Shown here: positions 4,321 through 60,036 of the stretch, one piece after another
How the letters are laid out: each line of letters starts with the position of its first letter
Numbering within the stretch: the stretch's first letter is position 1
From: an uncultured Vicinamibacterales bacterium
Lineage (GTDB): Bacteria > Acidobacteriota > Vicinamibacteria > Vicinamibacterales > UBA8438
Direction of reading: 5' to 3'
DNA: 64,000 nt
Assembly: GCA_958295905.1 (NCBI GenBank)
Contig: OY282382.1
Coordinates: 1 to 64,000 of the forward strand
Made by a program: the position numbers and the translations under genes
Notes under the pieces: model-generated
Seen by the model: only the letters and a program-made list of their open reading frames with translations
Told to the model about the DNA's origin: nothing
Database searches by the model: none

Positions 4321-6825
4321 TCAGAAGAACCGCAACGAGTAGCCCGCGCGGACGCCGCGGCCCATCTCGGGGGCCAGGTCCTTGATGAACGACGTGTGGT
4401 TCCGGTAGAGGGCGTTCGCCAAGTTGTAGCCGGTGAACGAGAGGATGTGGGCGACGTGCTGCCGGGGCCAGACGTACGACGCGTCCAGGTTGACCACCGC
4501 ATATCCGCGCGTCTCCGTCTCTCCGCGGAAAATCCGGTCCTGCCGTCCCGCGAACAGGAGCTCCGGACTGATCGTCAGACCGCCGAACGGAACGTCGAGG
4601 CTCAGCGTGCCGCGCAGCGGCGGTATGCGCGGCAGCGGCTCGTTCGTCGTCGTCAGGGCCGCGTCGACGTAACCGATCCCGAGCGTGGCCCAGACCTGGC
4701 CGCCCAGCCGGAAGCTCCCGCGGGCGTCGAAGCCGACGAACCGGCTGTCGCCCTGGCGGAGGTCCAGGACGCGCAGGTTGTCCACGATCTCGTCGGTCAG
4801 GTCTCCGAAGATGAAGTCGGCGATGTCGTACACGTAGAAGTTCGCCTCGCCCTGCACGCGGCCGACGCGCTGCCGGAAGCTCACGTCCAGGCCGCGCATC
4901 GTCTCGGCCTCGAGATCGGGGCTCCCGACCTCGAAATTCCCCAGGTGCGGGCCGAAGTTGTAGAGCTCCTCGAGCGCCGGCACGCGATGCCCGTGGGTGA
5001 AGTTGGCCACGATCGCGGTGCTGGCGCCGAGGTCCGCGTGCAGGCCGACGGACGCCGACGCCCCGAGGAACTGCCGGTCGCGGGGGTCGGCAGGTGCCCG
5101 CACGACCTCCTCCCCCTCGTCGTCGTGGTCGTCGCCGTCGTCGTCGTGGTCGCCGTCGTCGTGATCATCATCCCCGTGGTCGTGGCCGGGCAGGACGGGG
5201 CGCGCGGCCGCGTCGTAGCCCGTGCGCTCGACGCGCCCGCCGACCTGCACGCGATGGCGCCCGAAGGTCAGCTCTTCGTAGCCGAAGAGCGAGAACGAGA
5301 CCTGCTCGGTGCGCGGCGCGAGCGCCTCGGCACCGGTCGCCGCGAAGTTGCGGAACCGCAGCTCCGAGCCGAACCGTCCGGTGAGGTGCTCCTGCTGCCG
5401 CTGGTAGACCAGCGTGCGCGTGAGGTAGGTCCGGTTGTCGAAGCGCGTATCGACGTTCTCGATGCCGCCGAGGGTGTCGACGTGGTCGTCCTGGACGTCG
5501 ATCGCGTGGAACCCGGTGCGGACCCCCTGGATCACGCGGTTGTCGATGTTGCGCACGCCGATGTCAAGCCGGGCTACGCGACGCTCGGAGGCGAGGTCGA
5601 TCTCCAGCTCCTCGTCGTGCCCGTCTTCGGCCTCCCCGAGCCCGGGCTCGTCGTGATCGTGCTCCTCCGGCTCCCCGTGGGCGTGGAAGCGATCCTCGAA
5701 GGGCAGTCCGAAGCGGCTGTTCTCCATGGTGAGGCCGAGGCTGGTGAAGAAGCGGTCGTCGAAGTAGCCCAGCCCGGCGCGTCCGCTCGAGAGCTCCGTG
5801 GCCGAGTTGAAAACACTCCCCTCCGGCGTGTCGTAGTCGCCCGCCCGCCGGTAGGCGCCACTCCCCCAGTAGAGGAGCTTGCCGCGCGAATGCTGCACGT
5901 TGGCGTAGGTGCCGACCTGCCGGTTCGCGCTTCCGGCGTCCGTGCCCAGCCGCCCCCGCGTGCCGTCGAGCAGCGTGTCGCCATAGCTCTCGGGCGGCGT
6001 GAGCAGGTTGCGGTAGGCCGCGTGCGGCGTAATCACGTTGATGAGTCCGACGATGTTCGACCCGTAGAGCAGTGTGGCCGGTCCCCGTGTGATCTCGATG
6101 CGCTCGGCGCTGTTCGGGTCTATCGTGACGCCGTGGTGATCGGAAGTGCTGGAGAGGTCGCCGGTGGGGATCCCGTCCTCGATAACGTGCACGCGGTCCC
6201 CGCCGAACCCGCGGATGATCGGCCGGCTCGACCCCGGTCCGAAGCTGCGGTTCGCAATGCCCGGCTCGTCCTCGAGGGCTTCCCCGATGCTGCCGGGCGC
6301 GTCCCGGGCGATCTGGAAGGCGTCGACCGTCGTAACGGCGTTGAACGCCCGGAGCGTCGCCTCGGCCCCTACCGTCGCCTGGGCGGTGACGGTCACCTCC
6401 TCGCGGACCGGCGACAGGCGGAGCGCGAACTCGACGCTCGTCGTCCCGCCGGCCGTGACGGCCACGCTCTGGCGGGCGGTGGTGAGGCGCTCGCGCTGCG
6501 CCGTGACCTCGTACGAACCGGCCGGCACGCCGGTGATCTCGAACGTCCCGTCGTCGGTGAAGGTGAATGCGCCGGTCCCGAGGATCAGTATTATCGCGCC
6601 ATCGACGAGCCCTCCGGTCTCGACCAGTGTCACCGTGCCGCGCAGCGTGCCGGTATCCTGCGCCTCGGAGTCTGCGCCGCAGGAAGTTCGCGGAATCCCG
6701 GTGGCTTGCGTCGTGACGCACGGCGTCAAGGTGTCTTCCGCGGTCGACGAGCAGGTGATTTTCGACCAGCCGGCGGCGTGAACCGAAAACAGGCCGTACA
6801 CCCCTCCAAACGCCGCGATTCGCAC
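4321..6825 (-). CDS. TonB-dependent receptor, metal-type (ZnuD-like), His/Asp-rich loops
   Basis: An outer-membrane receptor of about 834 residues if the GTG at 6825 is used. The order is a carboxypeptidase-regulatory-like domain (GTLRGTV to VEFALRL), a TonB plug (EALEDEPGIANRSF, then RPIIRGFGGDR near 178-210) and a beta-barrel ending in the aromatic SLRFF. Two barrel segments are strikingly rich in His, Asp and Glu (residues about 378-408 and 545-577), as in zinc receptors of the ZnuD type, so divalent metal uptake is the likely role. The 5' end abuts an IS1182-family element; no ATG exists upstream, and the start VRIAAFGGVYGLFSVHA looks only partly like a signal peptide, so the native N-terminus may have been removed. 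Confidence 0.8.
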   Translation of the reverse strand: MRIAAFGGVYGLFSVHAAGWSKITCSSTAEDTLTPCVTTQATGIPRTSCGADSEAQDTGTLRGTVTLVETGGLVDGAIILILGTGAFTFTDDGTFEITGVPAGSYEVTAQRERLTTARQSVAVTAGGTTSVEFALRLSPVREEVTVTAQATVGAEATLRAFNAVTTVDAFQIARDAPGSIGEALEDEPGIANRSFGPGSSRPIIRGFGGDRVHVIEDGIPTGDLSSTSDHHGVTIDPNSAERIEITRGPATLLYGSNIVGLINVITPHAAYRNLLTPPESYGDTLLDGTRGRLGTDAGSANRQVGTYANVQHSRGKLLYWGSGAYRRAGDYDTPEGSVFNSATELSSGRAGLGYFDDRFFTSLGLTMENSRFGLPFEDRFHAHGEPEEHDHDEPGLGEAEDGHDEELEIDLASERRVARLDIGVRNIDNRVIQGVRTGFHAIDVQDDHVDTLGGIENVDTRFDNRTYLTRTLVYQRQQEHLTGRFGSELRFRNFAATGAEALAPRTEQVSFSLFGYEELTFGRHRVQVGGRVERTGYDAAARPVLPGHDHGDDDHDDGDHDDDGDDHDDEGEEVVRAPADPRDRQFLGASASVGLHADLGASTAIVANFTHGHRVPALEELYNFGPHLGNFEVGSPDLEAETMRGLDVSFRQRVGRVQGEANFYVYDIADFIFGDLTDEIVDNLRVLDLRQGDSRFVGFDARGSFRLGGQVWATLGIGYVDAALTTTNEPLPRIPPLRGTLSLDVPFGGLTISPELLFAGRQDRIFRGETETRGYAVVNLDASYVWPRQHVAHILSFTGYNLANALYRNHTSFIKDLAPEMGRGVRAGYSLRFF

Positions 6826-6860
6826 CCGATTCTCGGTCGGTGGGGGCAGGATCCACCCCC

Positions 6861-8184
6861 TTACGCCGCCATCAGCGCGTGCAGGCGCTTGGCGTTCACC
6901 GCCAGGCACACCAAGTCCCACTCGCCCCGCACCTGAGCCAGGCCGCGCAGGCTGAAGCGCCGGAAGCCCAGCACGTGCTTGACCCAGCCGTACGGCGCCT
7001 CCGACAACCACTTCCGCTCCGCATACACCGCCCGCCCCGCCGGCGTCGACAGCTTCTCCACCATCCGCCCCGTCGCCGGATGCTTCTCCAGATCGCGGCC
7101 GGCGACCCCCTTGTCCTCCCGGCCCGCCGCCACGTAACCGTCAACACCCCGCGTTTCCAGGTCCGCCAAATCCCGCTCGTTGCAGTACCCCGCGTCGGCC
7201 AGCACCGTCGCCGGCTGCGTCTCGAACGTCTCCCGCACCTGGTCGAGCAACACCGGCAGCCCCCCCTGGTCGTTCGCGTTCGCCGTCACATCCGTCGCCA
7301 CCAACAACTGGTGCTCGGCGTCCACCGCCGCCTGCGCGTTGTAGCACTGCTGGAAGCCCTCGTTGCCCGTCTTCATGATCCCGCTTTCCGGGTCCGTGAA
7401 GTTGCTCTGCGACTTCTCGTCGGGCTCTCCGTACGCCCGCTTGTACGGCCGGCCCCCCTTCGGATTCCGGGTCCGCCCCGGCTGCCGGCCGCGCGCGGCG
7501 TCCGCAGCCCGTTGCGCCGCCTCCAAACGCGCCTGCGCCGCCCGGATCGCCGCCAAACGATCCTCACGCCGCCGCAACTCCGCCGGCAACTCGTCGCCCC
7601 GTACCGCCGGACCCAACCGCACATCCTCGGCCACGTCGGTCTCATCCGCCGACCGCAACAGCGCGTCGACCTCGCCGGCCAGACGCCGTTCCTCCTCCTG
7701 CATCCGACCGTAGCTCATCGCCTTGCGCTTGCTCGCATTCGCGCGCACCTTCGTCCCGTCGATCGACAGCTTCCCGAACCGGGCCAGCCCCAATTCCCGC
7801 GCGAGACCGACCACATCGACGAACAGCCGCTTGAAATCGGCCAGGTGCCGGCGACGGAACTCGCAAATCGTCCGATGCTGCGGGAAGTTGCCGGCGGCCA
7901 GCACCCGGAACGCGACGTCCTCTTCCAGCTTCTTCGCGATCCTCCGCGACGAAAACACCCCCGTCGCGTAGGCGTAGAGCAGCACCTTCACCATCATCCG
8001 AGGCGAATACGGCGCGTTGCGACGACCGTCCCCCCTCGTACGGCGCGTAGAACGCCGTCAGATCCAGACCTTCAACCAGATCGCTGATGTGGTGCGCCAA
8101 GTGACCCTCGGGCAGCCACTCCCGCACATCGGGCGGCAACAACAGCGACTGCTCGGGCACGTAGGGGCGAAACGTTGTCGACAT
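6861..8184 (-). CDS. IS1182-family transposase, single-base frameshift
   Basis: Read as one gene, this encodes a DDE transposase of about 440 residues, normal for IS1182. The N-terminus, from the ATG at 8184 (MSTTFRPYVPEQ, then LVEGLDLTAFYAPYEG), is in one frame. The rest (from RRNAPYSPRMMVKVLLYAY through LSIDGTKVRANASK, ATVLADAGYCNERDL and GWVKHVLGFRRFSLRG) is in another. The frames join at a run of six C on the plus strand (8030-8035); removing one base restores Y-E-G-D-G-R-R-N-A-P-Y. IS1182 is not known for programmed shifting, so decay or a homopolymer read error are the likely causes. Terminal repeats could not be placed. Confidence 0.8.
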
Positions 8185-8678
8185 CAAGCTCCCTCTCGTC
8201 GTCGGCTCGTCTACAATTGTCGCATCGATTTTCTGCGGCGCAGACTCCTCGGCCGGCGCCGCGGCGATCGCGACGGCGGCGGCGATGGCGACGGCGGAGG
8301 GTCGGAGGCGCCGGCCCGGGCCGGCCGGCGGGCGCCGCCGAGGCGGCCTGCGCGGGCGCGCCGGCGCCGGGCCGCGGCCTGAAGGGATCGTGGAGTGCAA
8401 GCTCAGGGGCGTTCGTGGCATCATGGGCGTCCGGCGGCGCGTCTTGAACAGGGCTATTCTATCTATCGGATGCGCAGTACACGCCACTTTGGTCTTGCGG
8501 TGCGAGGTCAGCGCACTGGAATCGCCCCGATGACGGACCGCCCAGGCAGCCGGCACGCCCTCCGGCGCTTGCCGCCCGCCGCGCCGGCTCGGAGCGGCAT
8601 TCATGACGCACGGACTGGTTCTTCCAGCCGTACGATAGCCTTTATTGGCGCGGGGCTGGCACGCACGGAGGAGACGGC
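8185..8678. other. Intergenic: extreme-GC stretch and a hairpin half-site
   Basis: No gene is seen. A family-H half-site (TTCTGCGGCGCAGACTCCT) lies at 8231-8249, and 8250-8390 is almost pure G+C with GGCGGC-like simple sequence. The promoter of the downstream amidohydrolase should lie in 8600-8670, where a short AT-richer patch (GATAGCCTTTATTGG) precedes the start. Confidence 0.5.
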
Positions 8679-9967: not shown

Positions 9968-10140
9968 GTCCGCGGCAGAAGCTATGCTGCATGCGGCCGG
10001 GGCCGTACTCGGCCCCAGAGTGTGTCGTTTACAGCGGTCGAAATCGCCGGAATCTGGCCGATCCGAGCCGTTTCCGCGCCACCGCCGGCCAGTTTCTGGC
10101 GCGCCGCGGAGTTTGCCACGGGCTCATGGCGGGGGGTCGG
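9968..10140 (+). repeat. Dispersed repeat family D, copy 1
   Basis: About 160 bp that recurs in inverted orientation at 27452-27620. Shared blocks include CGGCCGGGGCCGTACTCGGC, ATCCGAGCCGTTTCCGCGCC and GCGCGCCGCGGAGTTTGCCA (one base differs in places). No open frame is conserved between copies. Confidence 0.8.
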
Positions 10141-10286
10141 GGCACCGTCCTGCGGCGCAGACTCCCCGTGTGGAGTCCCTCAAGTTCGATACAGAATATG
10201 ACCGTTGATCTGGACCGCAATGGCGCGGCCCACGGCAGCACCTGATTGTGTTGCATATTTCAGGGACACCACGCTACCAGTATCAG

Positions 10287-10396
10287 CCCGGAAATCGTCG
10301 CCGTAGGGTCGCGCTGCGGCCTCCGATTGCCGCCCAACCCTCCAGGGAGTCAGCCCTCAGGGAGGAGGCGGCCCCGTTCTACGGCGCAGACTCCTA
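10287..10396 (+). repeat. Composite of family G module and family H hairpin half-sites
   Basis: A block GGAAATCGTCGCC...CCGCCCAACC (family G, reverse) is followed by GGGAGTCAGCCCT and TTCTACGGCGCAGACTCCTA (family H). The last bases overlap the stop codon of the minus-strand DUF1761 gene, so the hairpin may end its transcript. A second half-site is at 10147-10166. Confidence 0.65.
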
Positions 10397-10807
10397 GCGC
10401 CACAGGCCCAGCACGACGGCCATCACCGCGACCGACGCCAATTGGTATCCGGCGTCGATGGCCCACAGGCTGAGCGGCTTGTCCGAGAAGAGGTTGTTCG
10501 TCAGGCCGACGGTGGCCGAGAACCCGAGCCACAGGTGGAGGCCGATGTGGAGCGTCGGGCCGACGCCCTCGCCGAAGTGCGGAGCGATCAGCGCGAGCAC
10601 CGTCGCCATCACGAACCAGCAGACGAAAGAAACGGCGTAGGTCGGCCCCATGCCGGCCTGCATCCGCTGGAGGTCCTCCGCCGTGTAGCCCTGGCCCGCC
10701 ATCCACGGCTTCGCGAACAACAGGGGCGAGTACCACAGCATGCCGAGCGCGAAGGTCAGCACCGCCGCCAGCCCCACCGCAAGAAAGTTCACCTCTGCAA
10801 ATCCCAT
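10394..10807 (-). CDS. DUF1761-family membrane protein
   Basis: A 137-residue protein with four likely membrane helices: LAVGLAAVLTFALGMLWYSP, YAVSFVCWFVMATVLALIA, LHLWLGFSATVGLTNN and LASVAVMAVVLGLW. The WYSPLLFAKPW stretch after helix 1 and the overall length match DUF1761. Function in the family is unknown. The start at 10807 (MGFAEVNFLAV) follows a GGAG-type ribosome site; the frame stays open upstream but that part is low-complexity and unlikely to be translated. The stop sits in a family H half-site. Confidence 0.75.
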   Translation of the reverse strand: MGFAEVNFLAVGLAAVLTFALGMLWYSPLLFAKPWMAGQGYTAEDLQRMQAGMGPTYAVSFVCWFVMATVLALIAPHFGEGVGPTLHIGLHLWLGFSATVGLTNNLFSDKPLSLWAIDAGYQLASVAVMAVVLGLWR

Positions 10808-11131
10808 CCGCTCCTCCCCCGGGTTGCCGAAACCCCGACCAGTGTGGGGCCGGGGCGCGGAATCGTCAATCCGCGGCGGGGCGCGGATCGGCAACGGACG
10901 ACCGGCGGGCCCGGCTCGGACCGGTGGGACGCCGCCCCCGCACCGATGCCGGGAAGACGTTGACGGCGCCCGCGCAACGGCCGTAGCATGGCCGTCGTGA
11001 CGCCACCGACGCCGCGGCACCGAACCCCGCCGGCGATGCCGGCGCCCGCGGTGATTTTCTCCCAGCCGACACCCGGCCATCGCCGTGACCCGTCGAACGG
11101 GTCATGAGCACTCCATGAAAGCAGGTTCACC
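10808..11131. other. Divergent intergenic region
   Basis: No gene is seen. The region separates the DUF1761 gene (-) from the metallo-beta-lactamase-fold gene (+) and should hold both promoters. A hairpin-capable GTGTGGGGCCGGGGC stretch near 10841 is the only structure noted. Confidence 0.4.
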
Positions 11132-11917: not shown

Positions 11918-12066
11918 TGAGGGAGGCCGGGAGTCTGCGCCGGCTGCTCATCCATGCACACGACAGGGCATGCGGGGTCGTACGGTCGCGAATAGATGTC
12001 CAGAACATGCTTCATGTGCGCCACGAACTCGGCATCGGTCTGCGGCGGGATCACCCAGTACTCGAT
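11914..12066 (-). pseudogene. IS630-family transposase fragment
   Basis: About 50 residues on the minus strand read IEYWVIPPQTDAEFVAHMKH, then VLDIYSRPYDPACPVVCMDE, the catalytic-core segment of IS630 transposases up to the second acidic residue (CMDE). Both ends are missing. Confidence 0.7.
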
Positions 12067-14660: not shown

Positions 14661-14689
14661 GGGAAGTCTGCGCCGCGGTACGGCGCGGG

Positions 14690-15250
14690 CTAGTGAACCC
14701 CGCTCCCCATCTGCAGCATGGAGGGGTCGGCGCCGAGGCGGCGAATCGCCGTTTCCCACATCTGGGCGGCCTTGGTGTCGAAAATCAGATCGAGCTGGAC
14801 GTCGGCGATCAACCAGGCCGAGGCCGACAGCTCGGCGTCGAGCTGACCGGCGCCCCATCCGGCGTACCCCGTCAGGAGCCGGGTCCGTGCCGGGGGGCGG
14901 TCTTCGAGGAGCCGCCGCAACAGGTTGGGGGAAGTGGACAGGTAGAGGCCCTCGCAGACCTCGACCGACTCGGCGTCGGCCGGCTGCTGGCCCATCAGAA
15001 TCCAGCCCCGCTCCGGCTCGACGGGGCCGCCGATCCACAGTTGCAGACCGTTGTCCACCTTGACCGGGGGGGTCAATCGCACGACCGACGACGCCGGGGT
15101 ATCGGTCTGCCGGTTCAGCACGAGGCCGAAGGCGCCCTCTTCTCCGTGCTCGCAGAGCAGCACCACCGTCTGCCGGAAGTTCGGGTCGCAGAGCTGGGGC
15201 ATCGAGAGCAGAAGCCTCGGCGCGAGGGAGCTGTTGTTCCCGTTCGTCAC
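14690..15250 (-). CDS. yqgE: YqgE/AlgH family protein (UPF0301)
   Basis: A 186-residue protein of normal length for UPF0301. The hallmark segments are visible: APRLLLSMPQLCDPNFRQTV at the start, ALGLVLN-like GAFGLVLNRQTD, IGGPVEPERGWIL, YLSTSPNLLRRL, and TGYAGWGAGQLDAE. The family is widespread; AlgH was named for an alginate-related phenotype but its biochemical role is unknown. It lies 91 bp downstream of queG on the same strand and may be cotranscribed. A family H hairpin starts at its stop codon. Confidence 0.9.
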   Translation of the reverse strand: MTNGNNSSLAPRLLLSMPQLCDPNFRQTVVLLCEHGEEGAFGLVLNRQTDTPASSVVRLTPPVKVDNGLQLWIGGPVEPERGWILMGQQPADAESVEVCEGLYLSTSPNLLRRLLEDRPPARTRLLTGYAGWGAGQLDAELSASAWLIADVQLDLIFDTKAAQMWETAIRRLGADPSMLQMGSGVH

Positions 15251-22393: not shown

Positions 22394-22758
22394 ACGGGTA
22401 CGGACGGTTGCCAACGGTCCGTCACGTCATAAGTTTCGGACAGACGGACTTGAGTCGAACGACGTATTTCTTCTGCATAGGACTCTTGCGGTTCGAGGTG
22501 AGTGCCCCCGGACGCTCCTATTTTTAGTGGTGGCGATGCACTAGATCGGTTGGGCGGAAAGCGGAAACGCCTGCGGCGACGATTGCCGGGCGAGGAGTCT
22601 CCGTAGAACGGCGCTGATTCCTACGGGAGACGCTGGACTCACCGGAAGATTGGTTGGGCGGAAAGCGGAGACCGCAGCCCGACCCTGCGGGCGCGTTGGG
22701 CGTTTCGCGGGCGCGAATTCCTGCGGCGACGATTGCCGGGCGAGAGGGAGTTGGACCC
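22394..22758 (+). repeat. Intergenic repeat cluster (families F, G and H)
   Basis: No gene is seen. 22418-22470 holds a family F copy (CGTCACGTCATAAGTTTCGG, then AGACGGACTTGAGTCGAA), also at 55132-55182. GGTTGGGCGGAAAGCGGA occurs twice (about 22549 and 22655) and CTGCGGCGACGATTGCCGGG twice (about 22571 and 22721), forming an imperfect tandem unit around a family H hairpin (GAGGAGTCTCCGTAGAACGG) at 22592-22630. Confidence 0.7.
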
Positions 22759-28796: not shown

Positions 28797-28842
28797 CCGG
28801 ATGCCGCCCGACCAACCCTCCCGCGAGTCGGCGCCTCCCGCA

Positions 28843-28874
28843 GGAGTCCGCGCCGTGGAAACGGCGCGGACTCC
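28843..28874 (-). terminator. Perfect 14-bp hairpin (family H) after katG
   Basis: GGAGTCCGCGCCGT and ACGGCGCGGACTCC form a perfect 14-bp stem around a 4-nt loop, 9 bp past the katG stop. Position suggests a terminator or 3' stabiliser. It is the most perfect copy of a dispersed hairpin family. Confidence 0.7.
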
Positions 28875-28883
28875 CGGCCGAGT

Positions 28884-31578
<2,695 letters not shown>

Positions 31579-32940: not shown

Positions 32941-32948
32941 GGCGTAGC

Positions 32949-33030
32949 CCGGAAATCGTCGCCTGCGGCTCCGATGGCCGCCCAACCAACCCTAACAGGA
33001 GTCCGCGACGTGCTACGCCGCTGACGCCTG
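32949..33030 (-). repeat. Family G module joined to a family H half-site
   Basis: CCGGAAATCGTCGCCTGCGG and CCGCCCAACCAACC (family G) are followed by AGGAGTCCGCGACGTGCTAC (degenerate family H). Related copies: 10287-10396, 22546-22745 and 55624-55690. Confidence 0.7.
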
Positions 33031-33199
33031 CCCCGGAAAGCGCCGCCTGTCGCCCCGCCGATTTCGGCGGAGCGCAGCCCGTGATTCCCTTGCGGGAACG
33101 CCGGAAACACGGCAAAGTACCTGTCAGAGCCCTGATCCGAGTATAGACAGAGCCGGCTGACCCCCACAAGGGGCGGGGCCGGCCCGAGAGGGAGGAGGC

Positions 33200-46209: not shown

Positions 46210-46409
46210 GACCGTCGGCCTGCCGCCCTTCTATGCGCCCACCGTCACGGATATCATGGAACCAGCAGCCCGCGCGGGACGGCGCGGACACCAGAGGGGT
46301 TGGTTGGGCGGCGGGCGGGACGGCCGGCGGCGTGCCGGACTGGCTGATCCGCGTGGCCGCCGCGCCGGATCCGGTTACACGCCGAGATCGAAGAGACCGA
46401 GGTAACGCC

Positions 46410-51090: not shown

Positions 51091-51262
51091 GAAATACGCC
51101 AAGGATGACTGAATCGCACCGGAACGGATCCGGGCGTACATCGCGCAAGCAAACGGCTTGACTCGATGCGAGGTCGCCATGCGCTTGACGGAAGAATCGA
51201 ACGGTTGACATGTCACTCGTCTCCGAACTACCGAAATCGTGGACGCCGTCGCGCCCGCGCCC
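51091..51262 (+). pseudogene. Duplicated end of the ATPase gene and start of its partner
   Basis: About 170 bp repeat 49058-49295: AAATACGCCAAGGATGACTG, ATCCGGGCGTACATCGCGCA, GACGGAAGAATCGAACGGTT and GACATGTCACTCGTCTCCGA. The copy has an early stop (GACTGA), lacks about 66 bp, and breaks off in the partner gene's ninth codon or so. It cannot be functional. Confidence 0.85.
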
Positions 51263-51276
51263 CGGGGGGGCTTCCC

Positions 51277-51795
51277 TCAGAATCCCAGGGACACCGACAG
51301 AACGGCACCGTCGCGTGACAGGCGGGGAGAAACGGCGAGACGCCGGTTGGAAGGCGCCGCACGGTAGATGACCCGCGAACCTTGGTGCAGGGAGTCCAGG
51401 CCGGCGCCGATACCGGCGCCGGCCGCTCCGAACAACGCGTACCACGACGCGCTGCCGCCGCCCTCGCCAACGACGAGAATCAGGGCAAGGGCCACGCCCA
51501 CGCCGGACGCGAATCCGAACACGGCGCCGTTCGTGAGCGAGTCGCGCTCCCGGCGCCGGACGACGGAGACGTCGTCCCGGTTCAGATCGCGGCGAAGGGC
51601 GCCCGCTTGCAGGGAGAGGATGGACGGGGACAGATCGACGATCCGCCCCTGCAACTTCTGACCGCCGCTGTCGGTGACGGTGACGCGGTCTCCCTGATTG
51701 AGCTCGAGCGCCAGCCGGTCGAACGAGAGGCTCTGGGCCCCGGCGAGCGGGGCCGTCGCCGTTGCCGCTGCGAGAACGAGAACGATTCGAGTCAT
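51277..51795 (-). CDS. Hypothetical secreted/envelope protein
   Basis: 172 residues from the ATG at 51795: a signal peptide (MTRIVLVLAAATATAPLAGA), then LALELNQGDRVTVTDSGGQK and LQGRIVDLSPSILSLQAGAL, an SH3-like or LSm-like small beta domain, and a Gly-rich glycine-zipper hairpin (GAVFGFASGVGVALALILVV, YALFGAAGAGIGAGLDSLH). Such proteins are common and unstudied in Acidobacteriota. The gene is single, next to tRNA-Asn. Confidence 0.7.
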   Translation of the reverse strand: MTRIVLVLAAATATAPLAGAQSLSFDRLALELNQGDRVTVTDSGGQKLQGRIVDLSPSILSLQAGALRRDLNRDDVSVVRRRERDSLTNGAVFGFASGVGVALALILVVGEGGGSASWYALFGAAGAGIGAGLDSLHQGSRVIYRAAPSNRRLAVSPRLSRDGAVLSVSLGF

Positions 51796-52037
51796 TCCAT
51801 TCCCTCCGCGCGGTGGATGCCGAAGAGCCTCGAACCCGGCGCCCACCGACCTCCGGGGTCGCCGCTTCTGCCGGGGAATGCGTCAGGCGGCGGCAAACCG
51901 GCTCATCCGGTCCGGGTTCCCCGCGACCTGCGCCGCCGGGAGCGGTTCCGTGGTGACGAAGGCGCGGGGGTCGAGCGGCGCGCTTCCCGCCGGTCGCGGG
52001 GCGCCGGCCGGGTGCGGAACGACAACAGGTAGGAAGG

Positions 52038-52113
52038 TGGCTCCTCAGGTTGGACTCGAACCAACAACCCTCCGGTTAACAGCCGGATGCTCTGCCAATT
52101 GAGCTACTGAGGA
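52038..52113 (-). tRNA. tRNA-Asn (GTT), CCA encoded
   Basis: A 76-nt cloverleaf on the minus strand. The acceptor stem TCCTCAG pairs with CTGAGGA, the discriminator is G and CCA is encoded. The D-arm is GCTCAATTGGCAGAGC, the anticodon loop CTGTTAA gives GUU, and the T-arm is TTGGTTCGAGTCCAA. Confidence 0.96.
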
Positions 52114-52197
52114 ACACGTGGCAGCCGCGGGCGGCGCCCGATGAGAAGCTGAGGCACCGGACGAAGCCCCGATCATAGAGGACCGGCGCCCGCAGCG

Positions 52198-52818
52198 TCA
52201 AATTTCGGGGTCCGGCGGGGGCGATTTCGCCGATCGCGCCCCCAGCAGTTGCCACAACGCGGCGAGCAGTCCCAGGCTCAGCCACCCCACCGCGAACGGC
52301 ACCTGCCCAAGGGCCGGGGCCAAGGGATACATCCGCCACAGGTCGCCGCCGACCACCGCCTGCGCGCCGGGGTGCCCCACGAGCGCGAGGACCCCCACGA
52401 GGGCGGTCCACGCGCCGCCGAAGGCGGTCCCCACGATGATGACGTGGCGCTGCAGGACCACTGCGATGCTCGCGCCGATGAGACACGCGAGGATGACCAT
52501 CCAGGCCTCGGGCTCGCCGCCGGCCGGGGGCCAGGAGAGGTTGAGGACCAGCACCCCGACGCCGGCCCCCGCCACCGCCACCGCCGCCAGATAGACGACG
52601 AGCAGCACCGCGGCCCCGGCCAAGCCGCCCACGATGACCACCGCGGCCGCCGGCCACGACGGCAGCGTGCCGACGAACAACGACGTGACCCAGGCGCCCC
52701 CCGCGAACCCGTACAGCACCAGCAGCCACCGAAACAACCGGTAGCCCAGGAAGCAGGTCACCAGCCCGGCCGCCAGTAGAATGATCGCCGCCAGGACCTG
52801 CGGCGACAGGAAGGCCAT
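52198..52818 (-). CDS. DUF4203-like multi-pass membrane protein
   Basis: About 206 residues from the ATG at 52818, almost all hydrophobic: VLAAIILLAAGLVTCFLGYR, WLLVLYGFAGGAWVTSLFVG, AAVVIVGGLAGAAVLLVVYL, AGAGVGVLVLNLSW, VILACLIGASIAVVLQRHVI and VPFAVGWLSLGLLAALWQLL, seven helices. This resembles DUF4203/TM7S3-like proteins of unknown function. Its start is only 9 bp from that of the divergent fusion gene, so their promoters must overlap each other's coding sequence or the true starts lie further in. Confidence 0.6.
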   Translation of the reverse strand: MAFLSPQVLAAIILLAAGLVTCFLGYRLFRWLLVLYGFAGGAWVTSLFVGTLPSWPAAAVVIVGGLAGAAVLLVVYLAAVAVAGAGVGVLVLNLSWPPAGGEPEAWMVILACLIGASIAVVLQRHVIIVGTAFGGAWTALVGVLALVGHPGAQAVVGGDLWRMYPLAPALGQVPFAVGWLSLGLLAALWQLLGARSAKSPPPDPEI

Positions 52819-52827
52819 CCCGCCATT

Positions 52828-55065
52828 ATGCCGGCGCGCGTCGAAGCGCCGCAACACGCGATGCCCGACGCTTCGACCCCGGCCCGCCGCCCGAGACCAT
52901 TCTCCCCGGCCGGCCTAGCCGCGGCGGCGGCGGGCGTCGCGCTGTTCGTCTACTTCGTCGAACGCACCGGCGCCGCGAACATCGCGGCGGGGGCCGGCCG
53001 CCTCGGGTGGACTTTCCCGGCGATCGTGGCCCTCGGCGGCCTGCGGCTCGCCGCGCGGGCTCTGGCTTGGCGCAACTGCCTCGACGACCGGCACCGCCTG
53101 ACCCGCCGGCACGCGTTCTGCGCCGTGGTCGCTGGCGATACGCTGGGGAACCTGACCCCGCTGGGCCCGCTCGCCGGCGAGCCGGCGAAGGCCCTGTTCG
53201 CGGTCGACCGCGAGCCGGCGGCGCGCACCCTCCCGGCCCTCGCCGTCGAGAATCTGTTCTTCACCCTGTCGGCGGCCCTCGTCGTCGCCGGCGGGGCGAT
53301 CGCCCTGGTGCTCCGGCTCGGTCCGGCCCACCGAGGGTGGATGGCCGGCGCGGCGCTGGCGGCGACGCTCGTTCTGCTGATCATGGCCCTCCATGGGGTG
53401 ATGTGGCGGCGCCGGCATCCCGCCAGCGGTCTGCTCGCGGGGGCCGCGCGGCTCGGTCCGGCGGCGAACCGCCTCGGGGGCTGGGCCGAACGGGTGCGCC
53501 GGGTCGAGCATCGCGTGCACGACCTGTACCCCCGCGCGCCCCGCCGGCTCGCCGCCGTGGCCGGCTGGGAGCTCGGCTTCCACGCCCTCGCGATCCTCGA
53601 GATTCACCTCGTGCTCGCGTTCGTCAGCGCCGTGCCGCCGACCCTGCTCGACGCGTTCGTCCTCGAATCGACGAACCGCCTCCTGGCCGCCGCGTTCAAG
53701 GTCGTCCCGCTGCGCATCGGCGTGGACGAAGCAGGCGCCGCCGCGGTGGCTGAACTGCTGGCGTTGGGCGGCGGCGCCGGGGTCACCCTGGCCATCGTGC
53801 GCAAGGCGCGCATGCTGGTGTGGATGGCCGCCGGGATCGTGCTGCTGGCGCGCCGGGGGCTGCTGGCGCGCCGCCGCGGAGGCGGCGCGGCGGCGCCGGC
53901 GGCGGACGGTCCGGAGGCGCCCGCGCCAAGCCACCCGGCTGGCGCCCGGCAGCCGAAGGTCCGAGAAGCTGTCGCGGTGGCCGCGGACAGTTCGGAGGAG
54001 CCCGCGCCACACCACCACGCCGTAGTGGTGGCCACGGACGGTCCGGAAGCACCCGCGCCGCGCCGCCCGGCTGGCGCCCGGCAGCCGGAGGTCCGAGAGG
54101 CTGTCGCGGTGGCCGCCGACAGTTCGGAGGAGCCCGCGCCACACCGCCACGCCGTAGTGGTGGCCACGGACGGTCCGGTAGCACCCGCGCCGCGCCGCCC
54201 GGCTGGCGCCCGGCAGCCGGAGGTCCGAGAGGCTGTCGCGGTGGCCGCGGACGGTCCGGTAGCACCCGCGCCGCGCCGCCACACCGTAGTGGTGGCCGCG
54301 GACAGTCCGGAGGCGCCCGCGCCACGCGGCCCGGCGGTCGTGGTGATGGCGCGCTCGCCGCGGGGCGCGCGGGCGCCCAAGACGCGGCTGGCCGGCGTGC
54401 TGACCAACGTGGAGGACCGGCGGCGGCTGTACGCCGCCTTCCTGACCGACGTCGTCTCGGCGTGCCGCACCGTGGCGGGGACCACCGTCCGGGTCGCGTA
54501 CACCCCCGACGGCGGACCGCTAGGGTTCGCCCCGGTCGGGATCGCCGGCGGAGAGCTGATGCCGCAACGGGGGGCCAGCCTGGGCGACCGCGAGCGCGGC
54601 GTCTTCGAAGACTTGTTCCGCGGCGGGTTCTCGCCGGTGGTGATGATAGGCTCCGACCTGCCGGGGCTGCCGGCGGCGCGGATCGGCGACGCGCTCGACC
54701 GGCTGGCCGCGGCACGCGACACGGCGGTGCTGGGTCCCACCCCGGACGGCGGCTACTACCTGCTCGGACTCGCCCGTCCCGGAACCGGACGCGCGGTGCC
54801 GGATCTGTTCACCGGCATCCGCTGGAGCAGCGCCCGGACCCGCGCCGACACCGTGGCTGCGGCTGAACGATGCGGGCTGCAGGTCGTGCTGCTGGACCCG
54901 TGGCGCGACGTCGACGACGCGGCGGACCTCGCCGAGCTTCGCATCACGCTTGCCGGCCCGGGTGCCGGCCGGGCCCCCGCCACCGCATCCGTGTTGCAGG
55001 ACCTGGCGGCCCGGAATCGCGGACTCACATCCCGCGGCGGCCCTCCATCGCCTTCGGCATCGTGA
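52828..55065 (+). CDS. Flippase-like membrane domain fused to a DUF2064 glycosyltransferase
   Basis: A 745-residue fusion. Residues 20-345 are a UPF0104/LPG-synthase-type flippase domain (VALGGLRLAARALAWRNCLD, LGNLTPLGPLAGEPAKALFA, FKVVPLRIGVDEAGAAAVAE). Residues 370-500 are a Pro/Ala linker with three 44-residue repeats. From about 500 on is a complete TIGR04282/DUF2064 glycosyltransferase-like domain (VVMARSPRGARAPKTRLAGV, VMIGSDLPGLPAARIGDALD, VLGPTPDGGYYLLGLARPGT). The two parts are usually separate genes. A lipid-linked sugar transfer role is inferred. The last 20 residues are read through a duplicated recR end, so the native C-terminus may be lost. An internal ATG at 52861 may be the start. 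Confidence 0.82.
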   Translation: MPARVEAPQHAMPDASTPARRPRPFSPAGLAAAAAGVALFVYFVERTGAANIAAGAGRLGWTFPAIVALGGLRLAARALAWRNCLDDRHRLTRRHAFCAVVAGDTLGNLTPLGPLAGEPAKALFAVDREPAARTLPALAVENLFFTLSAALVVAGGAIALVLRLGPAHRGWMAGAALAATLVLLIMALHGVMWRRRHPASGLLAGAARLGPAANRLGGWAERVRRVEHRVHDLYPRAPRRLAAVAGWELGFHALAILEIHLVLAFVSAVPPTLLDAFVLESTNRLLAAAFKVVPLRIGVDEAGAAAVAELLALGGGAGVTLAIVRKARMLVWMAAGIVLLARRGLLARRRGGGAAAPAADGPEAPAPSHPAGARQPKVREAVAVAADSSEEPAPHHHAVVVATDGPEAPAPRRPAGARQPEVREAVAVAADSSEEPAPHRHAVVVATDGPVAPAPRRPAGARQPEVREAVAVAADGPVAPAPRRHTVVVAADSPEAPAPRGPAVVVMARSPRGARAPKTRLAGVLTNVEDRRRLYAAFLTDVVSACRTVAGTTVRVAYTPDGGPLGFAPVGIAGGELMPQRGASLGDRERGVFEDLFRGGFSPVVMIGSDLPGLPAARIGDALDRLAAARDTAVLGPTPDGGYYLLGLARPGTGRAVPDLFTGIRWSSARTRADTVAAAERCGLQVVLLDPWRDVDDAADLAELRITLAGPGAGRAPATASVLQDLAARNRGLTSRGGPPSPSAS
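53941..54336 (+). repeat. 132-bp tandem repeat inside the fusion gene (3 units)
   Basis: Units start at 53941, 54073 and 54205 with GGCGCCCGGCAGCCG and encode a 44-residue Pro/Ala/Val segment (GARQPEVREAVAVAADSSEE, PAPHRHAVVVATDG). A partial fourth unit leads into the glycosyltransferase domain. The units differ by a few bases. Confidence 0.9.
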
Positions 55066-55085
55066 TCTCGTCGGCGTACTCGAGG
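55006..55085 (+). repeat. Duplicate of the recR 3' end
   Basis: 80 bp (GCGGCCCGGAATCGCGGACT to GTCGGCGTACTCGAGG) repeat 55781-55860, the recR terminus, with two or three substitutions, in the same orientation. The copy forms the last codons and stop of the flippase/glycosyltransferase fusion. Confidence 0.88.
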
Positions 55086-55131
55086 GTGCCGGCCCGGCCC
55101 CCGCTACCGCGTCCATGATGCAGGACCTGGC

Positions 55132-55182
55132 GGCTCGTCACGTCATAATATTCGGATAGACGGACTTGAGTCGAATGATGCG
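55132..55182 (+). repeat. Dispersed repeat family F, copy 2
   Basis: CGTCACGTCATAATATTCGG and AGACGGACTTGAGTCGAA also occur at 22418-22470. It lies between two genes and has no conserved frame. Confidence 0.7.
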
Positions 55183-55340
55183 ATTCATGAACCGCATGGC
55201 GGAAAGAATCTGCTGTTGCGTGTTCGGTCACTGGCGTGAGCGCCTACCCCGCTCCCGAAGCGCCGCAGATGCGAACTACGGCGTTTCACCTTGTGCGGAC
55301 GGCGTTTCTACCTTCCACGGAATCGGGGTATCATGCCGAC

Positions 55341-55592
55341 ATGCCGAGCCGGGACGTTCAGTGGCTTATCGGTGTCGTCGTGGCCGCAGCCGTGGCCATC
55401 AGCGTGCAGACGGGCGTGCAGTTCGCCGGTCTCCGGAGCGAGATCGCCGGTCTCCGGGGCGGGATCGGGGAACTGCGGACCGACCTGCGCCGGCTCGATG
55501 ACCGTCTCCGGGCCGTCGAGATTGCGTTGGGGAAGGTCGAGCAACGCCTTGAGACGCTCGAACGGCTGAACCTGCCCACGCCGGCCGACTAG
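55341..55592 (+). CDS. Small membrane-anchored coiled-coil protein
   Basis: 83 residues: one helix (WLIGVVVAAAVAISVQTGVQ) and then a heptad-rich coil (LRSEIAGLRGGIGELRTDLR, RLDDRLRAVEIALGKVEQRL, ETLERLNLP). This is the common one-TM plus coiled-coil design with no known function; such proteins often oligomerise. The start MPSRDVQWLIGVVVAA is preferred over an upstream Met. A family H hairpin overlaps the stop codon (the TAG is part of CTAGGAGTCTGCGCC). Confidence 0.55.
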   Translation: MPSRDVQWLIGVVVAAAVAISVQTGVQFAGLRSEIAGLRGGIGELRTDLRRLDDRLRAVEIALGKVEQRLETLERLNLPTPAD

Positions 55593-55780
55593 GAGTCTGC
55601 GCCATAGAACGGCGCGGACTCCTGGAAGGTTGGTTGGGCGGTGAGCGGAGCCGCAGGCGACGCTCTAGGAGTCTGCGCCGTAGAACCGTTTTGGATCCGA
55701 TCTAGCACAATATGTAGCGTTCAATCGCCTAAACTTGCACAACATATGGTGGTCAGAATTTCCTGCGGCGCAGACTCTTA
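55591..55780 (+). repeat. Cluster of family H hairpins and family G module
   Basis: 55591-55623: AGGAGTCTGCGCC and GGCGCGGACTCCT, a compact hairpin over the stop codon of the small gene. 55624-55666: family G (GGTTGGTTGGGCGG...GCCGCAGGCGACG). 55667-55780: an element of 114 bp bounded by AGGAGTCTGCGCCG and CGGCGCAGACTCTT with an AT-rich interior (ACAATATGTAGCGTTCAATC). Confidence 0.75.
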
Positions 55781-55799
55781 GCGGCCCGGAATCGCGGAC

Positions 55800-56396
55800 T
55801 CACATCTCGCGGCGGCCCTCCATCGCCTTCAGCATCGTGATCTCGTCGGCGTACTCGAGGTCGCTGCCCACCGGCACCCCCATCGCGATGCGGCTGACCC
55901 GCACCCCGAGCGGCTTGAGTAGCTTCGCCAGATAGATGGCCGTCGCCTCTCCCTCGACGTTGGGATTGGTGGCGAGAATCACCTCAGTCACCTCGCCGCC
56001 GCCGACCCGCCGCAGCAGCCCCGCGATCCGCAGATCGTCGGGACCGACCCCCTTCAACGGCGACAACGCCCCCATCAACACGTGGTAGGCGCCCTTGAAG
56101 TCGCCGGTCTTCTCGATCGCGGCGACGTTGTGCGGATCCTCCACCACGCACAGCAACCGCCGATCCCGCCCCGCGTCGGTGCAGTAGAAGCAGGGGTCGC
56201 AGTCGGTGATGTTCGAGCAGACCGAGCAGTAGACGACCCGCTCCTTGACGTCGCGAATGGCCTCGCACAACTGGTCGGCCTCCCCGCGCGGCTGCTTCAG
56301 GAGGTGGAAGGCCAGCCGCTGGGCGCTCTTGGCCCCGATGCCCGGCAGCTTCTGGAGCTCGCCGGTCAGCCGCACGAGGGGCTCGACTCGTGTCAT
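55800..56396 (-). CDS. recR: Recombination protein RecR
   Basis: A 198-residue RecR of normal length. The N-terminal helix-hairpin-helix is [20 protein letters not shown], the zinc finger [16 protein letters not shown] (Cys57-72), then the Toprim domain with [20 protein letters not shown] (Glu86-Asp87) and [20 protein letters not shown], and [20 protein letters not shown] at the end. RecR loads RecA on gapped DNA with RecF and RecO. It lies 17 bp after ybaB in the dnaX-ybaB-recR operon. An 80-bp copy of its end occurs 775 bp away. Confidence 0.96.
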
Positions 56397-56412
56397 GGAA
56401 CTGCCGGCCGGA

Positions 56413-56712
56413 TCACGACAGCCCGGGAATCTTGAGCCCGCCCATCATGCCGCCCATCCGCTGGGAGACCAGCTCGTCGACGCGGCGCTGCGCATCGGTC
56501 ACCGCCGCCACGATGAGGTCCTGCAGCATCTCCACATCGTCGGGCGACACCACCTCGGGGTCGATGCTCAGGCTCTGGATCTCCTTGACCCCGTTCATCA
56601 CGACGGTCACCATGCCGCCGCCGGCGGTCGCCTCGACCGTGGCCTGCTTGAGCTGCTTCTGCAAATTGTCCTGCATCTGCTGCGCCTGCTGCATCATCTT
56701 CTGTATGTTCAT
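56413..56712 (-). CDS. ybaB: YbaB/EbfC nucleoid-associated protein
   Basis: 99 residues: [20 protein letters not shown], then [20 protein letters not shown] and [20 protein letters not shown], the full YbaB pattern. The protein dimerises and binds DNA without strict specificity. A GTG at 56718 would overlap the dnaX stop (GTGA) and extend the protein by two residues; either start implies translational coupling to dnaX. The C-terminal [13 protein letters not shown] is Gly/Met-rich as usual. Confidence 0.94.
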
Positions 56713-56714
56713 GG

Positions 56715-58955
56715 TCACATCTCTTCGACGTCCTTGATCTCGGCCGGGAACACGTCGAGCATGGTCTGCACCGCGGGGTCGCCCATCGCCTGCGACAGCA
56801 GGTCGTCGGCCTTCTCCGACGGCGGCGCCGCGGACCCGGAACGCACCGGCGAACCGAGCAGCCCCGGGGCGCGCCGCGCCGGCGGACCGGGGGGCGGCGG
56901 GGAACCGGACTGCACCGGTGACCCGAGCAGCGCCGGCGGACCGGGGGGCGGCGGGGAACCGGACTGCACCGGTGACCCGAGCAGCGAGGGCGCGGAGGCG
57001 ACCGGGGGCGCGTCCGCCGTCTCCGCCCCTTCGGACTGCGACGGCTGCTCGGACCGCACCGGCGGCCCGAGCAGCGAGGGCGCGCGGTCCGCCGGCCGTT
57101 CGGTCGCCGACGGAGCCCCCGACCGCACCGACGGACCGAGCGGTGACGGACCGGGATCCGACGGCGGCTCGGACCGCACCGGCGATCCGAGCGACGGCGG
57201 CTCGGGATCAGACGAGAGATCGAGATCGGCCGGCGGCTCGGTCGGCGGCGACGGCTCCGGCGGCAGCGTCGTCAGGGCCGGCTGCCGCGGGTCCGGCCCC
57301 GACTCCCCCGACGCGGTCCGGGTGGAGGGGGGCGCCGGCCCGTCGACCTGCCGGACGGTCACCGTCGTCTTCCGTCCGGCCACTTGTCCGGCCAGCGGTT
57401 CGAGCCACGAGCGGTTCTTTTCGACTTGCTGCGCCAGCGTGCGCTGGGCCGTGGTGAAGACGAACGCGATCCGCCCGTTCTCGACCTCGATCTCACGGGC
57501 CTGGGCGGCCACCGTCCCGTGGAAGAACTTCCTCGTACGCTGCAGCTCGGCGAGAAAGCGTTCCTTCAGGCCGGCCGCCGACCCGGTGGGGGGGGCCGGG
57601 GCGGCCGCCGCCGGCGACCGGCCGACCGGGGGGCCGGGAGAGGGCTCGGGATGCGCCGCCGCCGAAGGGGCCGGGGGGGGGCCGGGAGAGGGCTCGGGAC
57701 GCGCCGGGGCCGGGGAGGCCGCGGTCCGGCGCACCTGCGGCGCCGGCCGGGCGCGCCGCGGCGGCTCGACCGGCGCCGGTCGGCGGCCGACCGGCGTTGC
57801 GCCCGAGGGGGCCGCCTCGAGCCGGCCGGCCCCGCCGAGCAGATCGGCCAGCGGCACGAGCGCGCGCAGGTGGATCCAGCGCAGCATCGCCATCTCAAAG
57901 TGGTAGCGGGGCTGCGTCGCGTTGCGGATGTCGAGCTCGGCCCGCGACAGCACGTCGAACCCGCGCAGCAGATCCTCACGCGAGAACCGATCGACCAGCG
58001 CCTGCAGGCGGTCGCGCTCGGCGTCGAGAGCGATCTCGGGGTCGCCGATGCGGCGCGCGTCCACCTTCAGCACCATCAGGTCCCGCACCAGCCGAGCCAG
58101 CTCGCGGCAGACCGACCGCAGGTCGTATCCCGCCTCGACGAAACGGCCCGCCAGATCGAAGACGCGCTCGGCCGCCTCGGCCGCAACCGTCTCCGCCATC
58201 TCGAGGACCGCATCGCGGCCCACCAGGCCCAGCACCGCGGACACGTCGTCGGCCCCCGCCGAATCACCCGCGAAGGCGATCACCTGATCGAGCGCGCTCT
58301 GCGCGTCGCGCATGCTGCCGTTGGCGGTGCGGGCGACGAGGGCGAGACCCGCCTCGTCGACGGAGACCTCCTCCGCCGCGACGATCGTCCGAAGCTGCTC
58401 GGCGATGGCGGCGGTGCCGATGGTGCGGAACTCGAAGACCTGCGAGCGCGAGAGAATCGTGTCGGGAATCTTGTCGAGCAGGGTCGTCGCCATGATGAAG
58501 ACCACGTGCGGCGGCGGCTCCTCGACGGATTTCAGCAGGGCGTTGAACGAACTGGACGAGAGCTGGTGCACCTCGTCGATGATGAACACCTTGTAGCGGT
58601 CGCGCACCGGGGCGATCGACAGCCCCGAGATGATCACCTCGCGAACGTTGTCGACCTGGGTGTGGGTGGCGGCATCTATCTCCAGCACGTCGATGTCGCG
58701 GCCCTCGGCGACCTCGCGGCAGACATCGCATTCGCCGCACGGGTCGGCGGTCGGCCCCTCGACGCAGTTCAGGGCCCGGGCGAGAATGCGCGCCGTCGTC
58801 GTCTTGCCGACACCGCGCGGCCCCGCGAACACGAAGGCATGGGCGAGCCGCCCGCGGGCGATGGCGTTGCGCAGGGTCTGGGTGACGCCGCGCTGGCCGA
58901 TGACGTCATCGAGCCGTTGCGGCCGCCACTTGCGGGCGAGAACCTGATAGGCCAT
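56715..58955 (-). CDS. dnaX: DNA polymerase III subunits gamma and tau
   Basis: A 746-residue clamp-loader ATPase. Walker [10 protein letters not shown] lies at 45-53, the zinc-binding Cys64, 73, 76 and 79 in [18 protein letters not shown], Walker B in [20 protein letters not shown] with VEEPP after it, and the sensor-1 [12 protein letters not shown]-like segment follows. The linker (residues 400-490) and tail (560-720) are Pro-rich; the tail repeats [17 protein letters not shown]. No A-rich slippery site was noticed, so a gamma-only product by frameshift is not evident. It heads the dnaX-ybaB-recR operon, with the SRP RNA gene just upstream on the same strand. Confidence 0.95.
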
Positions 58956-58993
58956 TCGGTGAGGGGTGGCGGGTCCCAGCCGCGACCCGGAAG

Positions 58994-59087
58994 AGCCTGC
59001 GGCACATGTCAGTGACTACTTAGCGCTGCTGCCTTCCGGCCCTGACGCGGTTCGTAGGCTGAGATTGCACAGGGTCCGAGCCGCGCT
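58994..59087 (-). ncRNA. ffs: Signal recognition particle RNA, bacterial small type
   Basis: The minus strand contains GTCAGGGCCGGAAGGCAGCA followed by GCGCTAAG, the strongly conserved domain IV tetraloop and asymmetric loop that bind Ffh. Flanking GGACCCTGTGCAATCTCAGC and CACTGACATGTGCCGCAGG close the hairpin. Position directly upstream of dnaX is the common one. Ends are approximate. Confidence 0.92.
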
Positions 59088-59193
59088 GCGACCCGTCACC
59101 CTCCTGGACGGCGGCCGCCCGCCCCGATCGGCCGGCGGCGGGTTCAGTCTATCGCCAGCTCCCCGGCCGATCAAGCAGCCGCCCCCGCTCCGC

Positions 59194-59366
59194 TAGGGGC
59201 ATCCCACGCTGACGGCGCGTGACGGCCCGCCCCCGATTCGAGGGATCGCCACCGTCTTGCCGCCCGTCCGGCGCCGGCGTGAGACCCGCGATTCCGCCCG
59301 TCCGGAGCCCCAGGACCCACCACGATGCTGCCTGCGCCCGCGGTGACGGAGCGTGGGATGCCCCTG
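59194..59366 (-). repeat. Family B element, copy between ffs and tRNA-Ser
   Basis: Ends AGGGGCATCCCACGCT and AGCGTGGGATGCCCCT are perfect inverted repeats; the interior GCCCCCGATTCGAGGGATCG matches the other copies. Confidence 0.9.
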
Positions 59367-59484
59367 CCCGCTCCGCCGGCCCGCCGTCGGCCCGGGGGGG
59401 CGATCGAGCGCCCGGCGCGCCCCGGCGCGGAACGCAGAAACGCCCGTGATAGACTGTTCATGAGACGGTGAGACCCCCGTTCCC

Positions 59485-59574
59485 GGAGAGATGTCCGAGC
59501 GGTTGAAGGAGCACGCTTGGAAAGCGTGTGTAGGGGAAACTCTACCGTGGGTTCGAATCCCACTCTCTCCGCCA
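59485..59574 (+). tRNA. tRNA-Ser (GGA), CCA encoded
   Basis: A 90-nt class II tRNA: acceptor GGAGAGA pairs with TCTCTCC, D-arm GTCCGAGCGGTTGAAGG, anticodon loop CTTGGAAAG (GGA), a long variable arm TGTAGGGGAAACTCTACC, T-arm GTGGGTTCGAATCCCAC, and GCCA at the end. A T8 stretch follows as a likely terminator. Confidence 0.96.
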
Positions 59575-59772
59575 CTCATTTTTTTTATTAAATTGTTGAA
59601 AACAAACGGCTAACCGGCATGGTACCGTACGCGACCCGCCCGCAATCCGTCACGCCGAAGCGGCCGTTGCGGCGTTGCTGACAGCGACCGCCGGGTGCCT
59701 TGATGCGCGGCAGCGGTCGGGCGACGACCCGGGTGCTGCCGGGCCGCGCGTCGCCGTGGCGAATGGTTCGAG

Positions 59773-60036
59773 ATGGACGCGACGGAACAGGACGGGGTGA
59801 CGACAGCGATCTCGGTCACCCTCTCCGACGGGCTGGACAACGATCGGTTCGACCAGTCGTTGACGCTGATTGTCACGCCGCCGGCCGACTGGCGCGGGCG
59901 GCTGGTGCGCGTCACGCAGAACGGGCGGCACGTCGAGTGGATTTTCCCGGATGCGGAGACCGCGCAGACCGTGCTGGTGTCTCTGCCGCCCAACGAGGAG
60001 TCGTTCGTACTGGAGCCCTTCCGGAACGAGGAATGA
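59773..60036 (+). CDS. Small protein coupled to a glycosyltransferase
   Basis: 87 residues (MDATEQDGVTTAISVTLSDG, FDQSLTLIVTPPADWRGRLV, VRVTQNGRHVEWIFPDAETA), predicted all-beta, without a signal peptide or membrane helix. Its stop overlaps the next start (ATGA), so it is probably real and translated with the glycosyltransferase. It could equally be the C-terminal part of a larger lost gene, since no strong ribosome site is seen. No family was recognised. Confidence 0.45.
   Translation: MDATEQDGVTTAISVTLSDGLDNDRFDQSLTLIVTPPADWRGRLVRVTQNGRHVEWIFPDAETAQTVLVSLPPNEESFVLEPFRNEE

Follow-up and report, generated by a model that had tools for sequence, protein, structure and literature searches.

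The 64-kb stretch of DNA analysed here, referred to as the window, carries towards its end a small gene whose stop codon is completed by the first base of a hairpin-forming repeat, here called F4. In this focal copy, the first hairpin spans 55589-55624 and the second is truncated on its 3' side by an adjoining MITE. Further F4 copies, an insertion sequence (IS) of the IS1182 family and several isolated or decayed ends were located elsewhere in the window (Table 1). Two near-identical repeats 132 bp apart (GGAGCCCGCGCCACACC..CACGCCGTAGTGGTGGCCACGGACGGTCCGG) were also seen at 53997-54141, within a 745-aa ORF (52828-55065).

Table 1. Repeat elements and adjoining genes in the window
Feature	Position	Strand	Remarks
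IS1182-family insertion sequence	6667..8248	-	GGAGTCTGCGCCG inverted ends; flanks TC/TC
Decayed pair of inverted ends (MITE-like remnant)	10108..10165	-	core matches
F4 with additional arm in hairpin 1	10286..10397	-	nhmmer E 1.4e-12
DUF1761 gene	10394..11080	-	TAG stop formed at F4 junction; natural C-terminus (domain 123/123)
Solo core	11930..11942	+	13 nt past stop of MBL-fold gene 11132-11917(+)
Isolated short hairpin, one-mismatch core	14663..14691	+	core search
F4, diverged	22593..22677	+	nhmmer E 8e-8
F4, 5' part	28810..28877	-	perfect hairpin 28843-28874; 3' limit approximate
katG-like peroxidase gene	28884..31457	-	stop 10 nt before F4 28810..28877
F4	32947..33031	-	CM 88.5 bits, E 1e-14
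Weak, partial F4 match	46277..46335	+	nhmmer E 7e-4; limits approximate
Small gene, 118 aa, no Pfam family	55236..55592	+	TAG stop = TA + first G of F4
F4, focal copy	55589..55666	+	nhmmer E 7e-20, CM 85 bits
MITE of ~110 bp, IS1182-type inverted ends	55668..55778	+	inserted at F4 3' end; flanks CTA / TAG

To count the core sequence GGAGTCTGCGCCG, the complete 6.30-Mb genome was searched. A total of 305 exact copies were found (150 on the plus and 155 on the minus strand) compared to none for the reversed-pattern control, and the recurrence proposed in the initial annotation was therefore borne out, far above chance. Six exact copies were present within the window, plus several with one or two mismatches. 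Sampling was systematic, with 80 stretches of 20 kb each that together with the window covered 1.664 Mb or 26% of the genome (below, G000 denotes this genome, G001 and G002 two congeners, and L-numbers 20-kb stretches, including those from G000). The sample contained 87 exact copies of the core. Replichore polarity, suggested by an apparent single strand over 2 Mb, was rejected, the unbiased sample giving 38 copies on the plus and 49 on the minus strand.

The core was found to be the terminal sequence common to three carriers, namely the 1.58-kb IS1182-family IS, MITEs of ~110 bp and the 84-bp, two-hairpin F4. Profile searches of the 26% sample gave 141 F4 matches at E<1e-3; the stricter limit of E<1e-6 left 104. 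This extrapolates to roughly 400-530 per genome. The core sites in the window had originally been taken for a single family of perfect, 33-bp hairpins. The sites at 10377, 22592, 28843, 32998 and 55591 are all F4, with two hairpins. The site at 8231 is the right end of the IS1182-family element, the left end of which (6667) had been missed; those at 55667 and 55759, listed as separate hairpins, mark the two termini of a single ~110-bp MITE; and those at 10147, 11928 and 14662 represent ends that are isolated or have decayed. A complete F4 unit measures ~84 bp, and the stem of a typical copy is not perfect, having a conserved T-G wobble.

The F4 consensus (~84 bp) is CCAGGAGTCTGCGCCGTAGAACGGCGCGGACTCCTGGAGGGTTGGTTGGGCGGCnATCGGAGCCGCAGGCGACGATTTCCGGGC. 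In it, a G-rich linker (AGGGTTGGTTGGG) joins a hairpin of 16-17 bp (CCAGGAGTCTGCGCCGTAGAACGGCGCGGACTCCTGG) to a second hairpin around GGAGCCGCAGGCGA that shows covariation. The 5' border reads CTAG, CCAG or GCAG, with CCAG pairing in the stem with CTGG, and the 3' end reads CCGGGC. The predicted folding of both hairpins gave z = -6.0 as RNA; as DNA, the two strands gave -6.4 and -7.4. In an alignment of 47 copies, 87% of cells paired compared to about 40% with partners slid, and 41 cells had changed on both sides compared to 18.7 in shuffles, these cells not being independent as the copies are related. Compensatory change was clearest in hairpin 2, where AATCG/CGATT was replaced by GAGCG/CGCTC. 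G-U pairs outnumbered A-C mismatches on the sense strand by 111 to 20, or by 65 to 20 without two systematically variable pairs, which points to that strand folding, either as RNA or as single-stranded DNA. In copies sense to a gene the excess was 2.9:1, and otherwise 1.8:1; this difference is not clear, and confinement of the excess to gene-sense copies was not supported.

In one subtype of F4, an additional arm (GCCTCCCCCCGGAGGC) makes hairpin 1 a three-way junction (L086:3-106, L082:7155-7258 and window 10286-10397). A head-to-tail array of four units with a period of 83 bp was present at L033:7661-7993, with joints CCGGGGCAGGAGTC, GCAG at the inner joints and GGGCTT or GGGCTA ending the last unit. 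No match for F4 was obtained above the gathering score in Rfam 15, where two tRNAs and the small SRP RNA were the sole hits of the window. An integron attC site (RYYYAAC...GTTRRRY ends) was also rejected, on a consensus compared by eye: GTTGGGC is found in the linker, with no partner at the ends.

For the analysis of gene ends, the gene caller had been trained on the same sample, and 88 F4s of the 26% sample were scored for stop position. The first G of F4 (of GGAGTC) was the third base of a same-strand stop codon in 21 of the 88. In the two congeners G001 and G002 (400 kb), 8/23 F4s were exactly on a same-strand stop. The overlap with stop codons first noticed in the window thus holds genome-wide, with about three quarters of F4s lying off the exact junction. 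Seven more genes in the sample, and those at 2 of the 23 copies in G001/G002, ended at the internal TAG of F4 (offset -15). Within the window, the stop contacts claimed for the DUF1761 gene and the small gene both proved real, each TAG being formed at the F4 junction. The katG-like gene was indeed close, its stop (28884, minus strand) being 10 nt from F4. The contact claimed for the MBL gene (11132-11917) was not upheld: what lies past its stop is a solo core with no clean hairpin.

The type of stop codon was also distinctive. Sample genes ended in 875 TGA, 402 TAG and 80 TAA codons; the stops at F4 junctions were essentially all TAG and never TGA (20/402 TAG versus 0/875 TGA genes, p = 7e-11). 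Of the 19 F4s preceded by CTAG, 13 coincided with a sense stop, against a background of 14% for all oriented CTAGs and 23% for extragenic CTAGs, and a pure CTAG target preference was therefore insufficient to account for the junctions. With regard to orientation, a gene was located upstream of F4 in the sense direction in 77/101 cases, and in co-directional spacers 59 copies were sense and 10 antisense (41:10 without at-stop copies). The corresponding sense:antisense count in G001/G002 was 8:4, which is not significant. The Pfam C-termini of F4-stopped proteins were complete (L5, DUF1761, CcmE, RsfS, OAD_beta, TonB barrel and others); stop-bearing proteins were mostly full length by this measure, with a few of the scanned proteins having no Pfam family.

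The sampled stretch L098 (genome 5,122,501-5,142,500; rplV, rpsC, rplE, rpsE) is syntenic with G001:C453 and G002:C19. F4s sit here within the S10/spc ribosomal operon, between co-directional ribosomal-protein genes, and their presence varies among the congeners. The copy after rplE is shared by G000 and G002 and is missing or decayed in G001; that at 14025-14264, 3' of the r-protein gene adjoining rpsC, is found in G000 and G002 and is absent in G001; and one further copy in this region is found in G002 only. The end of rpsE carries an F4 in all three (G000 L098:9082-9181, G001 L173:9889-9964, G002 L174:9713-9788), which in G000 provides the stop. Orthologues of the DUF1761 gene (window 10394) stop at the same place without F4, with TGA in G001 and TAG in G002. 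The comparison of F4 flanks was ambiguous, with no clean empty site or target duplication readable, because the congeners are only ~85% identical and the spacers have turned over.

Searches with a covariance model found from 53 to at least 153 F4 copies in genera g1, g2 and g9 and in one g6 species, and one match each in two other g6 species. F4 is therefore present in four of the ten genera of the host family; it was absent from the other six by the same model, and from 246 other genomes of a phylum-wide sample searched with stricter filters. F4 is lineage-restricted. An exact 29-mer of F4 was present in a Vicinamibacteraceae MAG (JAAXGX010000135.1), and the host family is therefore probably Vicinamibacteraceae (Acidobacteriota).

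The 1.58-kb element is an ordinary IS1182 member. Its intact transposase (441 aa, L031:17052-18377) scored 360.6 bits against NF033551 (cut-off 270), and five intact copies of the IS are located elsewhere in the genome. In the window copy, the transposase is frameshifted near 8030, giving separate matches to residues 1-55 and 51-441. This copy adjoins, or is inserted in, the 3'/5' part of a minus-strand TonB-receptor ORF (4321-6825/7011). The ~110-bp elements, with IS-type inverted ends (GGAGTCTGCGCCG) and a duplicated target, are ordinary IS1182 MITEs. They form two subfamilies, with TA/TA flanks in 14/25 readable copies, and 8/32 were located at the 3' end of an F4.

F4 is like the IS and MITEs in that its first arm is their inverted repeat (GGAGTCTGCGCCG + nAGAA) and its junction falls between CTA and G. 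It is unlike them in having no matching inverted repeat at its 3' end (CCGGGC), and on this feature it does not fit a MITE of IS1182. Because the first arm has the sequence of the IS and MITE ends, F4 most likely arose from IS1182-type ends and shares their TA/CTAG target. IS1182 fragments in G012, G014, G023 and G026 had the same ends (GGAGTCTGCGCCGCAG); a 51%-identical IS1182 in the F4-free G032 had the ends CTAGGAGCCCGTCCGAGTAATCG, in which the start (CTA/GGAG) is alike and the remainder different. The ends shared by the fragments indicate that the first arm of F4 belongs to this IS clade, or that the IS acquired the arm of F4. The IS1182 transposase was undetected in the F4-rich G001, G003, G017, G020 and G022 (draft assemblies, 71-95% complete). 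Since F4 is plentiful where the transposase was undetected, dependence of F4 on an IS1182 copy was rejected; with no IS-type 3' end on F4 either, IS1182 is unlikely to be its present mobiliser. No enzyme moving the 84-bp unit as a whole was found.

F4 is postulated, with even confidence, to be a TA/CTAG-targeting mobile hairpin of IS1182-type ancestry, the first base of which regenerates TAG so that insertions at stops would be tolerated. Insertion would place GGAGTC... directly behind a TA. Where this TA is part of a TAG or TAA stop, the first G of F4 would restore TAG and the gene would therefore stay whole. A reverse-oriented insertion generally would not restore the stop, and selection would therefore leave sense copies on amber stops. 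F4 is presumably transcribed with the gene, its strong hairpin beginning at the stop codon, and this hairpin may slow termination or 3'-to-5' decay, like E. coli REPs near stops. TA/CTAG-targeted insertion with survival of the TAG-restoring insertions is the best supported explanation for where F4 lies, for the type of stop at its junctions and for some of the orientation bias. Stop regeneration cannot be the whole story, because the sense bias remains when at-stop copies are left out. The remaining sense bias, together with the covariation and G-U excess, suggests selection on the folded sense strand. The sense orientation, the covariation and the excess of G-U over A-C would also be compatible with an effect of F4 on mRNA stability or translation.

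The stop overlap could instead be an artefact in which random F4 insertion truncates genes and ORF calls end there. As a TAG is present both at the border of F4 and within it, ORFs reading into the element tend to stop there, and the seven cases at offset -15 fit this account. However, the mostly full-length proteins contradict it for most genes tested, and congener orthologues terminate at the same codon whether F4 is present or not. Truncation was rejected on the orthologue ends and Pfam coverage (a few proteins without a Pfam family aside) and is considered improbable. An intrinsic terminator family, as the initial annotation had allowed, would be consistent with a strong GC-rich hairpin just 3' of genes; however, hairpin 1 is followed by TGGAGGGTTGG and not by a T-run, and so does not qualify. 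A terminator scan of window positions 50000-60000 likewise raised no flag, and the location of F4s between co-directional S10/spc genes argues against a strong terminator. Of the readings considered, this one has the least credence. The REP/BIME-type assignment stood as far as behaviour is concerned, F4 being high-copy, palindromic, mostly extragenic, 3' of genes, single or in tandem, and polymorphic. It shares with REP/BIME elements the location between co-directional genes, lineage restriction, plausible transcription and occasional clustering, but is an 84-bp two-hairpin unit with head-to-tail arrays and a junction exactly on TAG. The copy number, palindromes and 3' location, and the TAG that often begins F4 copies, would suit a true REP mobilised by a RAYT that has been lost or missed. 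GTAG-type REPs are 20-40 bp long, with an unpaired GTAG tag, and are RAYT-associated (PMC3733652). No unpaired GTAG tag was present at the foot of the F4 hairpin, and the arrays are not inverted. The RAYT search proposed in the initial annotation gave no match in G000 to PF01797 (Y1_Tnp) or NF047646, even at E<=10, and none was found in six F4-rich relatives (G001-G003, G010, G012 and G017). Y1/RAYT transposases were found only in relatives without abundant F4, several of which carry one. As no F4-rich genome tested had a RAYT, F4 is REP-like but not a RAYT-mobilised REP, and mobilisation by a RAYT is strongly disfavoured. CGTC-tagged REPs, which have unpaired CGTC at one end, stems of 8-9 bp and no known dedicated transposase (PMC3733652), are like F4 in the last respect, but F4 has a stem of 16-17 bp, a different sequence and size, and no CGTC at either border. 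Although F4 behaves as a REP does, it belongs to neither class.

A more substantial alternative, possible although doubtful, is that F4 is a functional RNA element (a 3'-end protector, translational attenuator or intercistronic processing hairpin) positively selected at stops, with its spread incidental. In keeping with this are a sense bias that persists without the at-stop copies, the covariation, the excess of G-U pairs on the sense strand, and the rpsE-end copy common to three species and supplying the stop. Against it, F4 is often present or absent at orthologous ribosomal genes of congeners, it is missing from most of the family, and the G-U excess is not clearly stronger in gene-sense copies. 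A far-reaching extension of the stop-regenerating mobile hairpin, rather unlikely as a whole, would make F4 a mobile RNA/ssDNA element, independent of any RAYT, that docks in one orientation on amber stops, regenerates or supplies the stop, and places a termination hairpin behind hundreds of genes, including the S10/spc operon, thereby tuning their expression.

In E. coli, REPs are known to occur near stops; they can lower translation there and have a link to RAYT transposases. Those within 15 nt (<16 nt) of the stop lower translation, as PMC12306157 relates from its reference 17. F4 resembles the stop-proximal REPs described there in having a stable sense hairpin very near the stop, but starts on the stop itself and contributes its third base; at a distance of 0 it is a candidate for the same lowering of translation. 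F4 would represent a RAYT-less family in an unrelated lineage with a stricter rule, in that the junction coincides exactly with TAG. The stop-regenerating first base would, if confirmed, explain in a simple way how gene ends are colonised harmlessly, even in essential operons.

The presence and absence of F4 at the same ribosomal genes of congeners amounts to a natural experiment on stop-codon hairpins. In the same ribosomal stretch, a different short hairpin element (GGAGTCTAGGGAGCCTGCGCGACC...GGAGTTCGTTGGCGCGAAACTCC) was observed at L098:4717-4802, directly 3' of a conserved CTAG stop. Pieces related to this element, CGCGACCTTGCGGTCGCGTTCGGAGTTTCGC, were found within several F4s.
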